From Halomarina ordinaria (lineage in GTDB: Archaea > Halobacteriota > Halobacteria > Halobacteriales > Haloarculaceae), in contig NZ_JARRAH010000003.1 in NCBI RefSeq assembly GCF_030553305.1, positions 124,001-188,000 on the forward strand: a stretch of 64,000 nucleotides of DNA, given 5' to 3'. A program made the position numbers and the translations under genes. Positions 16,930 through 62,579 of this stretch are shown piece after piece; positions within the stretch are counted from its first letter, which is position 1, and the number at the start of each line of letters is the position of its first letter. The notes under the pieces are model-generated. The model was not told the origin of the DNA. It did no database searches and saw nothing but the letters and a program-made list of their open reading frames with translations.

Positions 16930-17031
16930 GTTTCTCGATATAGCGATATGAGATATATTACGACCGTGTTGGCACGCACAGCCTGCTGACCCGCCCGCCC
17001 GGTACCGAGAGGCGACCCACGGTCGAGTCGG

Positions 17032-17079
17032 GAATCAGTGAGTCAGTGACTCAGTACCTCAGCGACTCCTCGATTCGCC
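17032..17079. repeat. Octad array A (GANTCANN) at the 3' end of the RHH gene
   Basis: Six contiguous 8-bp units begin at 17032, 17040, 17048, 17056, 17064 and 17072. The first three read GAATCAGT, GAGTCAGT and GACTCAGT; the others are degenerate. The array runs over the stop codon (17059-17061) into the last codons of the small RHH-like gene. The spacing is exactly eight bases throughout. The same octads occur upstream of parA and again at 61918-61957, so these are probably binding sites and not coding repeats. Confidence 0.8.
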
Positions 17080-17454
17080 GTCGTCCGACTGGGCGAGCGC
17101 GCGAATCCGCTCTTTCGTCTCCTCGGGGTGGGCCTCGAAGGCGACTTCGAAGACGGCGCGGTAGAAGTGCTTGTTCTTCTCCAGGACGTATCCCTCGCGC
17201 TTGAGTTGCTTCTTGAGGCGGGTGAACGTGACGTCGATGTCCTCGCTCTGGGTGGGTTCGACGTAGATGGTCGCGGAGTCCCAGTCCTCGCGGATGTTCA
17301 ACTGGTCGTCGCGTTCCGTCCCGGACGACTGCGCCTCCGGAGTCGTCTCCCCTTCTCCTTCGGCCTCGTCGTCGGTCGTTCCACTGGATTCGCCCGTTCG
17401 CTCGTCGGTGCTCGCGGACGGGTCCTCGAACCGCTCGTCCATTCCGCGGGGCAT
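17059..17454 (-). CDS. Small ParA partner with a ribbon-helix-helix-like C-terminal domain (candidate centromere-binding protein)
   Basis: The 131-residue protein has two parts. Residues 1-57 are very acidic and low in complexity, probably disordered. Residues 58-120 look like a ribbon-helix-helix domain: a short strand SATIYVE, a helix about 72-86 rich in Lys and Arg (FTRLKKQLKREG) and a long helix about 94-119. Its ATG lies one base after the parA stop, so the two are co-transcribed. By analogy with RHH partners of ParA (omega, ParG, SegB) it would bind the surrounding 8-bp repeats, build the partition complex and repress the operon. This role is inferred from position and predicted fold; I do not recognise a named family. 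Confidence 0.7.
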   Translation of the reverse strand: MPRGMDERFEDPSASTDERTGESSGTTDDEAEGEGETTPEAQSSGTERDDQLNIREDWDSATIYVEPTQSEDIDVTFTRLKKQLKREGYVLEKNKHFYRAVFEVAFEAHPEETKERIRALAQSDDGESRSR

Positions 17455-17455
17455 C

Positions 17456-18367
17456 TCAGGCCTCCACCTCCGTCCGCTCGAACGCGCGTTCGAGCGTCGC
17501 CGCGACCTCGGAGAAGAGTTCGCGTTCGACGGTCTGGTCGTTCGCGTCCTCCCACTGGAAGACGTCCATCCCGTTGTCCCAGGCGCGCTGGATGGCGACG
17601 CGCATCGGGAGCCGGAAGACGGGCGCCATCGACGCCCACGAGTCGTCGAACGCCTCGAGGAACTTCCGCGACTGGCCGTCCGACCGGTACATGTTCGCCA
17701 GCAGGCCGACGATGGCGATGTCGATGCCCTGGTTCGTCTCGATGGACTCCAGCTGGTCCCAGAGGTCGTCGAGCGCGTCGCGCGAGGTCGCCTGGGTCTG
17801 GGCGGCGAGGAAGACGTTCTGTGCGGCGATGAACGCCGCGTCGGTCAGCACCGAGAGGTCGGGCGGACAGTCGACGAGGACGAAGTCGTACTCGTGGCCG
17901 TCGTCGATGAGGACTTCGAGTGCCTGTTTCAGCGAGAGGCGGGCGTTCGCGTCGTCCATCCAGTCGCGGGCCAGGCCCATGTCCTTGTGACTCGGGACGA
18001 GATCGAAGTTCAGGTGGTCGTACTCGTCGGCCTCGACGAGTATCTCCGAGAGCGCCGTGTCGTGGGTACGGGGGTTGTCGACGAGGACGTCGAGGAGGTT
18101 CGAATCGTCGGTGACGAGGAGGTTCGGCAGGTCGTTCTTCGGGTTCGAGGGGTCCGCGTCGTCTCCCGGCCCGAGGCCGAGGCCCTTCGTCATGTCCGCC
18201 TGCGGGTCGAGGTCGATGGCGAGGACGTCGTGTCCACGGGTCGCGAGCGCCCCCGCGCTGTTGATCGTCGCGGTAGTCTTCCCGGTCCCACCCTTCTGGT
18301 TTCCGAACGCGACCGTGGGAACGCCCGTCGAGGGCGTGACGGCCCAGCCGCGCGGTACGTCACTCAT
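17456..18367 (-). CDS. parA: ParA-type partition ATPase
   Basis: The 303-residue protein has the deviant Walker A motif KGGTGKTT (residues 25-32), the A' motif AIDLDPQADMT and Walker B FVLVDCPPDLS, with later conserved stretches around AAQTQATSRDALDDL. ParA ATPases bind the nucleoid in dimer form and move or space plasmids and chromosomes with a DNA-binding partner. The N-terminus lacks the long helix-turn-helix extension of type Ia ParA, so it is of the short (type Ib-like) class, in which the partner protein is the repressor. The ATG at 18367 is preceded by TTATGA (18391-18396), about 24-29 bases up, and by three octads lying between that box and the start. Confidence 0.95.
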   Translation of the reverse strand: MSDVPRGWAVTPSTGVPTVAFGNQKGGTGKTTATINSAGALATRGHDVLAIDLDPQADMTKGLGLGPGDDADPSNPKNDLPNLLVTDDSNLLDVLVDNPRTHDTALSEILVEADEYDHLNFDLVPSHKDMGLARDWMDDANARLSLKQALEVLIDDGHEYDFVLVDCPPDLSVLTDAAFIAAQNVFLAAQTQATSRDALDDLWDQLESIETNQGIDIAIVGLLANMYRSDGQSRKFLEAFDDSWASMAPVFRLPMRVAIQRAWDNGMDVFQWEDANDQTVERELFSEVAATLERAFERTEVEA

Positions 18368-18371
18368 ACCT

Positions 18372-18395
18372 GAGTCATTGAATCAGGGAGTCATA
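18372..18395. repeat. Octad array B1 in the parA promoter
   Basis: Three contiguous units at 18372, 18380 and 18388 (GAGTCATT, GAATCAGG, GAGTCATA) fill the space between the parA start codon and its TATA-like box, and overlap the box. A protein bound here would block transcription of the parA operon, which suggests autorepression. Confidence 0.75.
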
Positions 18396-18495
18396 AACGT
18401 ACGTCAGACAATCGGGGCGACCCGGAGCACTCGCACGACGAGCCACCCGGCCTGCGCCTGCACGCCCAATGGGGTACGTTTCGACCAAAATCGTT

Positions 18496-18535
18496 GAATC
18501 AGTGATTCAAGGAAGCAACGACTCGTGTACTCAGG
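18496..18535. repeat. Octad array B2 upstream of parA
   Basis: Five units in exact 8-bp register begin at 18496 (GAATCAGT), 18504 (GATTCAAG), 18512, 18520 and 18528 (TACTCAGG). About 100 bases of GC-rich sequence without octads separate it from array B1. Confidence 0.75.
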
Positions 18536-18583
18536 GCGGACGACAATCCGAGCGCCGTATGTGGAATTCGACCAGTAGTAAGT

Positions 18584-18796
18584 GAATCAGTGACATCAGG
18601 AGTCAACGAATCAAAGATGTAATGAACGGCCAAATCAACGACATAAAGTCAAGGAATCAATGAATCATTGACTCAGTGTATCAGTAAATCAGTACATCAA
18701 TGAATCACGAAAGCATCGACTGCAGGCTCAGGGAATCATCGACCGATGGAGTCGGTGAATCCCGGAGTCCACCAATCAGTGATTCAATGAAACGTC
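18584..18796. repeat. Main octad array B3 (about 26 units)
   Basis: This is the longest array. The unit consensus is GANTCANN, most often GAATCAGT or GAATCAAT. Units at 18654, 18662, 18670, 18678, 18686, 18694 and 18702 are seven in perfect 8-bp phase. The array continues with a two-base phase slip near 18646 and a one-base slip near 18725, then in register from 18733 to 18796 (units include GAGTCGGT, GAATCCCG, CAATCAGT, GATTCAAT). The composition is much more AT-rich than the flanks. It has the look of a centromere-like partition site. Confidence 0.85.
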
Positions 18797-18845
18797 GAAC
18801 GCGTCGGGGACGCCCGCTCGACGGGCAACGACGCACCACGCCGTC

Positions 18846-18909
18846 GAATCAGGGAATCCGTAGGTATCGGATTCGAGGAGTACGTGAGTCACGGATTCCA
18901 TGAGACGGT
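18846..18909. repeat. Octad array B4 next to the recombinase gene
   Basis: Eight units in register begin at 18846 (GAATCAGG), 18854 (GAATCCGT), 18862, 18870 (GATTCGAG), 18878, 18886 (GAGTCACG), 18894 (GATTCCAT) and 18902. A 49-base GC-rich gap separates it from array B3. The array ends 78 bases before the stop codon of the tyrosine recombinase. Confidence 0.75.
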
Positions 18910-18987: not shown

Positions 18988-20289
18988 TCAGTCGGCGAAC
19001 GCGTCCGCCAGTCGGTCGCGCATGAACTCACGCCGGACCCGGCGGGACCGCGAGTCGGAGAGGTAGTTCCGCACGACGACCCGGGGGTCGCTGCTCCCCT
19101 GCTCCGCGGCGATGGTCTCGACCCCCTCGAGGACGCCCTCCAGGACGGCGGTGTAGGTGTCGTACCAGAAGCGCCGACACAGCTGTGGACTCGGCCGCTC
19201 CCCGCCGATACGGGCGGGGAGGTCGGCCTCGGCAGCGAGCGCCTGGAACCAGTTCCGGACCGTGTTACGGGTCACGTGGGGCGTTTCGCCCCGAGCGGAG
19301 GGGAAGAGATAACCCGTCCACGCGTCGTCGACCGCCAGTTCGTCGACGCGCGCATCGAGCGCCGCGAGGCCGAACAGCACCGAAACCTCGCCCGGACCGT
19401 TCTTGCGGTCGTCGAACCGGACGTAAGGGACGTCGTCGTCGGGGACGTCACGGGTAATCTGTGAGGCGTGCAGCGCGGCGACCTCGCTCGCCCTGAGTCC
19501 CCACCCGGCGAGGGCGGTCACCAGGAGTCGGTCCCGCGGGGTCGAGGCCGCCCGCGTCAGCGCCCGGACGTGTGTCGCCGAGAGCGCCGGCGTCGACGAC
19601 GCGGCCGTCTCCCACTTGAACTCGTCGTAGAGGCCGCTCGCGGGGTTCAGCGAGGCGACGCGCCGCCCCACCAGGTGCTGGTACCAGGCGTCGACGACGC
19701 GGCGCACCCGCTGGAGCGTCTGGGCGCTGTACGCACGGTCGGCCCCCTCGTTCAACCAGTCGAACGCCGCGTAGCAGGCGTCGACGGCCGCGTGGGCGGG
19801 CGTCTCGCGCTCACGGAGGACCGGCGTGAGGAGGTCGTCCGTCCCGTTCGCCTCCCGGTACGCTCGCACGTAGAGGTTCAGTCGGGTTCGAAGGGCGTCG
19901 ACGGACGACGCCGCGAGCCCGTGTCGCGACCGCCGACGGTCGAGGAAGCGTTCGAGGGCGTCGACGGTCCGCCCGTCCGCGGTCGCCCACGCGTAGCCGT
20001 CGTCGACCGACCCGAGTCCGAGGTCCTCGGTCCAGAACTCCCCGAAGGAACGGCCGTGATGGCGCCGCAGCGCCGCGAGAAACGACCGGGCCCCGTGGTC
20101 GCGGAACCACTGGTGCGTGGGTCGCTCGCACGTCGGGTCGATACCCGTCGCCTCCAGACACGGGGCGACCCGGTCGCGGTACAGGGCGACGAACTCCTCC
20201 AGCGAACACGCCGACCACCGAACGTCGTCGAACGAGGGCGTTCGACGGCCGTCGAGTCCGTCCGTTTCGGTCGGCTCCGGCCGGGTCAT
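18988..20289 (-). CDS. Tyrosine recombinase / integrase
   Basis: The 433-residue protein has a SAM-like core-binding N-terminal half (about 105-225) and a C-terminal catalytic domain. The catalytic set can be placed as R266 in GWGLRASEVAAL, K296 in DRKNG, R372 in PQLCRRFWYDTY and nucleophile Y409 in VVRNYLS. The two histidines usual in boxes II and III appear as Q369 and S399, so this is a divergent member. Such enzymes integrate elements, resolve multimers or invert DNA. Its position just beyond the octad arrays and parA suggests a resolvase of the replicon or the integrase of an element. It reads toward the arrays. No tRNA gene or clear att site is visible. Confidence 0.88.
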   Translation of the reverse strand: MTRPEPTETDGLDGRRTPSFDDVRWSACSLEEFVALYRDRVAPCLEATGIDPTCERPTHQWFRDHGARSFLAALRRHHGRSFGEFWTEDLGLGSVDDGYAWATADGRTVDALERFLDRRRSRHGLAASSVDALRTRLNLYVRAYREANGTDDLLTPVLRERETPAHAAVDACYAAFDWLNEGADRAYSAQTLQRVRRVVDAWYQHLVGRRVASLNPASGLYDEFKWETAASSTPALSATHVRALTRAASTPRDRLLVTALAGWGLRASEVAALHASQITRDVPDDDVPYVRFDDRKNGPGEVSVLFGLAALDARVDELAVDDAWTGYLFPSARGETPHVTRNTVRNWFQALAAEADLPARIGGERPSPQLCRRFWYDTYTAVLEGVLEGVETIAAEQGSSDPRVVVRNYLSDSRSRRVRREFMRDRLADAFAD

Positions 20290-60352: not shown

Positions 60353-60453
60353 GACGGACGAGAGGAGCCGTGGGTAGTAAGGGGCACCGACGGTCCCTGT
60401 CGGGGTCGCACAGTCGGGACGCGTTTATGTCGACGGCCGCCGACGCGGGTTCC

Positions 60454-61863
60454 ATGGATACGTTCGTCGTCGTCGGTGGTGACGCCGCCGGCATGTCGGC
60501 CGCGAGCAAGGCGAAGCGCGACGACCCCGACCTCGACGTCGTCGTCTTCGAGCGCGGCGAGTGGGTGTCCTACGGGGCGTGCGGCCTCCCCTACTACGTG
60601 AAGGGGGAGATACAGTCGCTCACCGACCTCGTCTCGGTGACGCCCGAGGAGTTCCGCGAGGAGCGGGACATCGACCTCCGGACGGGCCACGACGTCGTCG
60701 CCATCGACCCGGACGACCGCACCGTGACCGCGAGGAACGACGACGGGGAGGTCGTCCAGACGTACGACCACCTGCTCGTCGCGACGGGGGCGGCGGCGGT
60801 CACGCCCCCCATCGCCGGCCTGGACCGCGAGGGCGTCTACACCCTCGGGTCGATGGCCGACGGGAAGGACCTCCGCGAGTACGTCGGGCGCGCGCGCGAG
60901 CACCGCGACCTCCAGCAACCCGACCGGGGGCCGGCCTGCCAGTTCCTGGAGACGTGTACCGGTCCCGTCGGCGTCGTCGGCGGGGGGTACATCGGCGTCG
61001 AGATGGCGGAAGCGCTGGCGGCCAACGACTTCGAGGTCCACCTGTTCCAGCGCGGCGGCCGAATCCTGAAGTCGTTCAGCGAGGCGACCAGCGAGGCCGT
61101 CCTCGACCACCTCGACGAACAGGACGTCGCCGTCTACCTGCACGCGGAAGTCGAGGAACTCGCCGGCGGGGAGAGGGTAGAAGCGGTCGTAACCGCCGAG
61201 GAGCGCGTCCCCGTCGAGATGGTCCTCGTCGGGACGGGCGTCCGCCCGCGGACGGCGCTCGCCGAGGAGGCCGGTATCGAACTCGGCGAGACGGGGGCCA
61301 TCGCGACCGACGCCTACTGCGAGACGAACCTCCCGAACGTGTACGCGGCCGGCGACTGCGCGGAGGCCGACCACGTCGTCACCGGCGACCCGGTGCACGT
61401 CCCGCTGGCGCTGACTGCCAACCGGCGCGGACGGGCCGTCGGCCAGACCGTCGCCGGCGAACGGACCGAGGGCGGCGGGGTCGCGGGGACCGCTGCCGTG
61501 AAGGCCTTCGACGTCGAGGCGGCCCGGACGGGTATCCTCGACCACGAGACGGCGCGGGCGGCCGGCTTCGACCCGCTGACGCGGACCATCGACGCGAACT
61601 CCCGGGCGGGCTACTACCCCGAGGGCGGGACGGTCCGGGTGACGCTCACCGTCGACCGGCCGTCCGGACGCGTCCTCGGGGGCAGTCTCGTCTCCGAGTA
61701 CGGCGAGGGAGCCGTCCACCGGAGTCACGCCCTCGTCGGGGCGGTGACCGAAGGGGTGACCGTCGCCGACCTCGCGAACTACGACCTCGCCTACGCGCCG
61801 CCGTTCAACACGACCTGGGACCCCGTGCTGACGGCGGCGAAGGTCGTCGAGGGAGAGCGGTAG
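60454..61863 (+). CDS. CoA-disulfide-reductase-like FAD/NAD(P) oxidoreductase
   Basis: The 469-residue protein is a group 3 pyridine-nucleotide-disulfide oxidoreductase. It has an N-terminal FAD motif VVVGGDAAGMSAASKA, a single redox Cys in VSYGACGLPYYV (typical of CoA-disulfide reductase, NADH oxidase and NADH peroxidase), a second nucleotide motif GVVGGGYIGVEMAEAL and NVYAAGDCAEA. In haloarchaea this group may keep CoA reduced, which suits the neighbouring CoA-dependent genes. GTTTATG at 60422-60428 is about 28 bases before the ATG at 60454, which favours this start over an ATG at 60427 inside the box. The octad array at 61918 follows it. Confidence 0.9.
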   Translation: MDTFVVVGGDAAGMSAASKAKRDDPDLDVVVFERGEWVSYGACGLPYYVKGEIQSLTDLVSVTPEEFREERDIDLRTGHDVVAIDPDDRTVTARNDDGEVVQTYDHLLVATGAAAVTPPIAGLDREGVYTLGSMADGKDLREYVGRAREHRDLQQPDRGPACQFLETCTGPVGVVGGGYIGVEMAEALAANDFEVHLFQRGGRILKSFSEATSEAVLDHLDEQDVAVYLHAEVEELAGGERVEAVVTAEERVPVEMVLVGTGVRPRTALAEEAGIELGETGAIATDAYCETNLPNVYAAGDCAEADHVVTGDPVHVPLALTANRRGRAVGQTVAGERTEGGGVAGTAAVKAFDVEAARTGILDHETARAAGFDPLTRTIDANSRAGYYPEGGTVRVTLTVDRPSGRVLGGSLVSEYGEGAVHRSHALVGAVTEGVTVADLANYDLAYAPPFNTTWDPVLTAAKVVEGER

Positions 61864-61917
61864 GCCTCGGTTCCCGACGCGTTCGTCGAGGTGACACGAA
61901 CCGCTCGTGTCGTCGTT

Positions 61918-61957
61918 ACCTCAAGGAATCATTGATTCAGTGAATCATTGAGTACAG
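61918..61957. repeat. Distant octad array C, same unit as at parA
   Basis: Five contiguous 8-bp units begin at 61918 (ACCTCAAG), 61926 (GAATCATT), 61934 (GATTCAGT), 61942 (GAATCATT) and 61950 (GAGTACAG). The three central units match the parA octads closely and keep exact 8-bp phase. The array lies in the gap between two convergent genes, where it interferes with neither promoter. It is 43 kb from parA. Confidence 0.8.
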
Positions 61958-62048
61958 GACCGCCGGTGCCCTACTACACAGTATCACGAATCGGCGGTTC
62001 CCTCGGGAAATGTTGGGATGTCGAGAACAGACCAGGCCCGAGACGGCG

Positions 62049-62579
62049 TCACTCCTCCCGAACGACCTGTTCGACCAGCACGTCGACGGTGCAGACCGTC
62101 TCGTCGTCGCTCGTGAGGTCGACCGACGCGGGCGTCGCGTCGCGGAGGGTCTCGTAGTCGACGGGCGACCGGTCCGCGTCGCTCCGATTACTCGGCCGTC
62201 TGACCGTCAGGGTGACCAGCACCTGCGGGCTCGACTCGCCGCCAGTCACCTGCAGCTCCTCCACCGAGGCGTCGAGGCGGTCGCCGAGCGCGTTCGAGAC
62301 GACGACGATGGCACGGTTCTCGCAGTCTCCGTCGGAGAACGAGGTGTCGTTCGCCACCATCGCGCCTGCGTCGCCCGCGGGGTCCACCGCGGCGGTGATG
62401 GCGTCCGCGCGTCCGGCGGCGGGGGGCCGTTCGCTCGCCTCGCCGTCCGTATCCCCGTCGGTGTCGTCGGTCCCATCCGTCGCGCCGGACCCGGAGCGGG
62501 GGGCGCTACAGCCGGCGAGACCGGCCGCGACGGCGGCCACACCGGTCGTGAGGACGGCGCGACGGGTGGGGTGGTTCAT
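62049..62579 (-). CDS. Tat-exported lipoprotein of unknown function
   Basis: The 176-residue protein has a Tat-type signal TRRAVLTTGVAAVAAG with lipobox LAGC (Cys24), then a 35-residue Asp/Gly/Thr-rich linker and a small beta-rich domain (about 60-176). The domain has two cysteines (DGDCENRAIV and ETVCTVDVL) that may pair. I do not recognise a family. GTATTTACC at about 62601-62609 lies 28 bases before the ATG. The gene converges with the CoA-disulfide-reductase-like gene. Confidence 0.72.
   Translation of the reverse strand: MNHPTRRAVLTTGVAAVAAGLAGCSAPRSGSGATDGTDDTDGDTDGEASERPPAAGRADAITAAVDPAGDAGAMVANDTSFSDGDCENRAIVVVSNALGDRLDASVEELQVTGGESSPQVLVTLTVRRPSNRSDADRSPVDYETLRDATPASVDLTSDDETVCTVDVLVEQVVREE

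Follow-up and report, generated by a model that had tools for sequence, protein, structure and literature searches.

The ParABS system of the bacterial plasmid pSM19035 (Delta, Omega and parS heptads) combines a ParA-type ATPase with a small partner gene and has contiguous short repeats over the par promoters and several parS sites per plasmid; full activation of the ParA ATPase needs at least four contiguous repeats (PMC9499535). The pSM19035 repeats are 7 bp long and non-palindromic, the sites lie at promoters, and the partner was shown to be an RHH protein. A second centromere-like cluster has been described for the megaplasmid pAMI4 of Paracoccus, a repABC replicon, where three extra parS repeats (3parS) in non-coding DNA, 11.5 kb from repC and rare among relatives, are bound by the partition protein and are essential for proper partition (PMC9040568). 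In Sulfolobales and other archaea the SegAB system consists of a ParA-type ATPase and a small downstream partner with dispersed binding sites, which are 13-bp palindromes (TCTAGA-S-TCTAGA), mostly intragenic and numbering about 30-50 per chromosome (PMC12284271). Chromosomal ParB-parS systems also have a ParA-linked site away from the par genes and near the origin, the site being a single long palindrome. The form of archaeal chromosome and plasmid centromeres, clustered or dispersed, has been listed as an open question (PMC5120986).

We analysed a window of 64,000 nucleotides, bases 124001-188000 of contig C3, which is a 240,923-bp plasmid replicon of a haloarchaeal genome in six contigs. It contains a par operon with arrays of phased 8-bp repeats (octads) and a further octad array, here called the satellite, 43.5 kb from the start of parA (Table 1). 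The ATPase is of the deviant Walker A kind of the ParA family (type I) and lacks an N-terminal DNA-binding domain, and contiguous octad blocks in 8-bp phase cover the par promoter directly upstream of parA, both as in type Ib systems. In contrast to pSM19035, the units are 8 bp long with a palindromic core, the fold of the partner is tentative, and the satellite of this archaeal plasmid is located between convergent genes. With pAMI4 the plasmid shares a rare second cluster in non-coding DNA kilobases from the par operon, but pAMI4 uses the repABC partition protein B and classical parS, and binding and function were tested there. The octads do not correspond to SegB-type 13-bp palindromic sites, since they are phased and occur at two places on the plasmid. 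They also differ from the single palindrome of chromosomal parS, and no ParB-family domain (HTH/CTPase) was detected in the partner or in 27 aligned orthologs by Pfam, or in the partner by NCBIfam. The likeness to chromosomal parS, which a previous sequence-only reading of this DNA had drawn, thus holds as a mechanistic analogy only.

The par locus

The ParA protein matched Pfam AAA_31 (4e-33) and, below the equivalog cut-offs, NCBIfam ParA families; Soj/ParF structures are relatives, and the P-loop starts at about residue 20 of 303. The position of the partner gene directly after parA is conserved in annotated relatives, and its product has a conserved N-terminus (MPRGMDERFEDPS) that an acidic linker joins to a C-terminal domain, likewise conserved. 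Searches of Pfam, including RHH, and of NCBIfam gave no significant family match for the partner, and a PDB search with the partner profile returned no relative of solved structure at E <= 1. AlphaFold models were of low confidence (pLDDT 53-55) and too poor for a structure search; that strand 62-67 together with the helices would fit a ribbon-helix-helix is a guess from these models.

Many relatives carry a two-unit octad block 11-26 bp before the parA start, at an identical distance (1561-1576 in seven plasmid stretches). This block is likely the operator of the par operon, as expected of an autoregulated operon. The chromosome of the same genome (C1:570989-572064) encodes a ParA 46% identical to that of the plasmid, and a gene distantly related to the partner comes next; no obvious repeat array was seen nearby.

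Table 1 Features of the par locus and the satellite region; positions are those of the window
Feature	Position	Strand	Basis or remark
Short octad block immediately after the partner gene	17031..17061	.	Same position in most relatives
Partner gene, 131 aa, directly after parA; candidate octad-binding protein	17059..17454	-	Arrays co-occur with partner
parA, deviant Walker A ATPase (KGGTGKTT), 303 aa, without N-terminal DNA-binding domain	17456..18367	-	Motif and family searches
Main octad array, upstream of parA, in several blocks with two to six phased units each; putative centromere and operator	18371..18907	.
Tyrosine recombinase (XerA/XerC-like) adjoining the par array	18988..20289	-	Cassette member often, not always
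CoA-disulfide-reductase-like FAD/NAD oxidoreductase, left neighbour of satellite	60370..61863	+	Homologues elsewhere at 76-85% DNA identity
Convergent intergenic gap holding the satellite, 185 bp	61864..62048	.	tblastn and nucleotide Smith-Waterman: no parA, partner or integrase remnant
Full five-unit satellite including degenerate flanks TACCTCAA and TGAGTACA (4/6 each)	61917..61956	.	Chance of >=4/6 per unit 0.02
Satellite core, three strong octads GGAATCAT TGATTCAG TGAATCAT	61925..61948	.	Three-unit PWM 37.6, replicon maximum; exact 8-bp phase
Short lipoprotein-like gene, right neighbour of satellite	62049..62579	-	Lipobox LAGC read from sequence; no significant family match

Three other contigs of the genome, also plasmids, have their own ParA gene and their own phased short-repeat array, built from the 9-bp word TACATTNNN on C4 (129.2-129.5 kb), the 12-bp word CGTATACGNNTN on C5 (7.1-7.3 and 8.5 kb) and the 9-bp word TTNGTACNG on C6 (25.1-25.6 kb). 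Their architecture is that of C3, while words and phases differ, and no off-par block of the respective motif was found on any of them. According to this, phased arrays look general for these ParA plasmids, whereas satellites do not.

The satellite array

The satellite consists of the units TACCTCAA GGAATCAT TGATTCAG TGAATCAT TGAGTACA in exact 8-bp phase. The octad is better read in the register TGANTCAN, a palindrome TGANTCA plus one base, of which the five units match 4, 5, 6, 6 and 4 of the six specified bases, respectively. Five phased units had already been described by the sequence-only reading; the array was confirmed with a shift of one base, but only three of its units are strong and two are weak. 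Since a random octad of the local base composition reaches at least 4/6 with a probability of 0.02, degenerate flanks in phase are unlikely by chance. The octads are undegraded in a replicon with a GC content of 69%. Their position between a converging reductase-like and a lipoprotein-like gene, away from promoters, proved to be as previously described. The sole orc1/cdc6 detected on the replicon (C3:190458-191708) lies just beyond the window, 4.5 kb from the satellite.

Short palindromic words are common, which could favour an explanation of the satellite by chance or low-complexity similarity. A three-unit pattern with up to three mismatches gave 52 matches in the window, compared to 0.87 expected from shuffles, and all of them were at par or the satellite. 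When at most one mismatch was allowed in the whole 3.61-Mb genome, 13 of 13 matches were at these two places on the same replicon, and the reversed control pattern had none. Furthermore, a PWM trained on par arrays of other species only ranked the satellite as the top three-unit window of the whole replicon (37.6 vs. a shuffle maximum of 15.0), which supports the earlier view of a site of the same type as the par octads. Apart from the satellite, such a cluster occurs off par nowhere on the par replicon or in the rest of the genome. Chance, to which we assign a negligible probability, is already refuted by this genome-wide scan. The outcome that would have refuted the sequence-only reading, phased clusters as often in shuffled sequence or on replicons without this ParA, did not occur. 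The satellite thus exists, is of the par type and is specific to its replicon. An octad match on C6 and lone matches elsewhere were near chance level and were set aside.

Octad arrays in other haloarchaea

Octad arrays travel with the parA-partner pair. Every intact orthologous operon examined has an array upstream of parA, usually accompanied by a short block after the partner gene; the sample comprised about 30 operons from many genera (eleven further genomes of the family and 20 named, intact plasmids). Besides the source, ten of 146 family genomes contain a close partner ortholog; Halosimplex pelagicum, where identity is 39%, makes an eleventh. Multi-hit octad clusters in the 146 genomes are confined, few exceptions aside, to those with a partner ortholog, in agreement with the proposed link to this ParA; the remaining genomes have no octad matches or, again with few exceptions, isolated single ones. 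Among named plasmids with the partner, arrays are present at par in 20 of 21. In the exception, Haloferacaceae archaeon XH8 (CP132293.1), parA is truncated with a transposase-like gene upstream and the upstream array is lost, while the partner gene is intact and a two-unit block after it was kept. No octads were found on a Halomarina plasmid that carries the same reductase gene but lacks par. The recombinase gene is missing beside the array-bearing par loci of Halosegnis rubeus, Haloarcula japonica, Halocatena salina and Natrarchaeobaculum. Therefore, the arrays do not follow the recombinase; by their distribution they appear to track the parA-partner pair, i.e. the gene downstream of parA, and not the neighbouring integrase.

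The par plasmid of a same-genus genome shares only the recombinase-par cassette with the source plasmid, and the longest exact match of the satellite to any par array examined (21 bases) is found there. In Halosimplex pelagicum R2 (5.2-Mb chromosome, 2515596-2548519), which has the distant partner (39%), the variant word GATTCAACG occurs at par and again 31 kb away.

Isolated blocks off par are the exception and occur in roughly a quarter of the replicons with such par operons. No comparable second octad cluster was found in seven other replicons, complete or available as a whole contig; Haloarcula amylovorans C23 and C24 of archaeon H-GB1-1 were covered in part. As most relatives are without an off-par block, the par system does not need one. 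The suggestion of a dispersed centromere-like site can therefore be kept for a par-type site on the same replicon, but not for broad dispersal, with one extra block here and none in most relatives, and action of the ParA system at several places was an overstatement, since the replicon has two, par and the satellite. Four free-standing blocks were found in Haloarcula amylovorans (C9, 33 kb; C23, 68, 81 and 84 kb) and others on Haladaptatus plasmids, and tblastn and nucleotide alignment revealed no par relic at these blocks. In Natronosalvus rutilus (NZ_CP100356.1, about 198.7-199.0 kb) an isolated block lies beside a readable ParA C-terminus and partner start (E about 1e-30), and in Salinigranum rubrum (NZ_CP026310.1, about 27.1-27.2 kb) beside a partner C-terminus (E about 2e-5). 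Both blocks have intact octads, are within 0.7 kb of orc1/cdc6 and proved to be leftover 3' ends of dead second par operons. Thus, an isolated block alone is not evidence of function. Four of 11 satellites have an orc1/cdc6 gene no more than 5 kb away (p about 0.01); because two of these four are such relics, origin proximity does not count as independent evidence and was rejected as a general rule.

Large extra arrays of Haladaptatus were not counted as satellites, being a split array and duplicated integrase-array units. In Haladaptatus sp. QDMS2 the recombinase gene and half an octad array are present twice on one plasmid (L262:16427-18044, L265:1479-3096), with about 26 kb between the copies when counted through the start of the record, and one copy lies 8 kb from par. 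Strain comparison of a Haladaptatus satellite was uninformative about its conservation, as the 1.1-kb gap is almost identical throughout. For the satellite of the source plasmid, a relative with the same intergenic gap was not found; DNA matches of reductase homologues stop where the gene ends or a few bases from there, short of the array. The exact satellite sequence had no match in viral contigs.

Possible roles of the satellite

The partner encoded after parA can probably bind the satellite, in the way expected for the arrays that flank its operon. By analogy with systems whose partner binds phased repeats, several dimers of the partner would cover the octads, shutting down parA and bringing in ParA. 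A partner-octad complex at the satellite, if formed, would engage ParA too; the free block would be a second docking point for the segregation machinery, with par as the main centromere of the plasmid and the satellite, at a distance of 43 kb, as an auxiliary one. That the satellite is such a spare par-type block, bindable by the partner, has in our estimate an even chance of being correct. We infer an octad-binding role for the partner, in preference to ParA or a third protein, along with binding of the satellite in vivo and a contribution of the satellite to segregation or to tethering of the origin side to par; possibly, the satellite is an origin-side auxiliary centromere. Its size is borderline because pSM19035 needs four contiguous repeats for full ATPase activation, and with three strong and two weak units the strong ones may be too few.

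The main rival is that the satellite is a passive leftover of a par operon once near orc1/cdc6 and since deleted or replaced, its octads perhaps still binding protein but having no role. This explanation is realistic because two fossil par operons were found, both beside orc1/cdc6, and it would fit the frequent location of par operons within 1-14 kb of orc1/cdc6 in relatives as well as the short distance between satellite and orc1/cdc6 here. Nevertheless, tblastn detected no remnant of parA, partner or integrase in the gap or within 1.5 kb, and the nucleotide Smith-Waterman score of the gap (32) was below the median of random replicon stretches (33.5). Moreover, both neighbouring genes are intact and converge neatly, the octads are undegraded, and the present par operon retains its own 3' block. 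We regard a leftover as possible but less probable. We consider it improbable that the satellite is bound by another protein sharing the octad motif, be it the par-adjacent tyrosine recombinase or a regulator. In favour of such a protein, the recombinase gene borders on the main array in this plasmid as in many relatives, and it was duplicated together with a half-array in Haladaptatus. Against it, several par loci that lack a neighbouring recombinase gene have kept their arrays, the location of the short 3' block is at the partner gene, and the satellite is not near a promoter.

No earlier description of octad arrays was found in the open-licence literature; as only open-licence papers were covered, the novelty of the family is not proven. 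The arrays appear to be a little-described family of archaeal centromere candidates, present on about thirty plasmids. Haloarchaeal plasmids might have a distinct centromere family of phased palindromic octads, with extra blocks on some large replicons (here on the origin side) serving as auxiliary centromeres, and a single ParA system would then hold a replicon at more than one point; this wider picture is tentative and rather doubtful at present. The relics also serve as a warning: a par operon that was lost can leave an isolated parS-like block behind as a fossil. Motif and register together define an archaeal centromere candidate that is conserved together with a single parA-partner pair in numerous genera of haloarchaea, and replicons with and without satellites, along with the dead par loci, provide a natural experiment which makes tests of binding and segregation straightforward.
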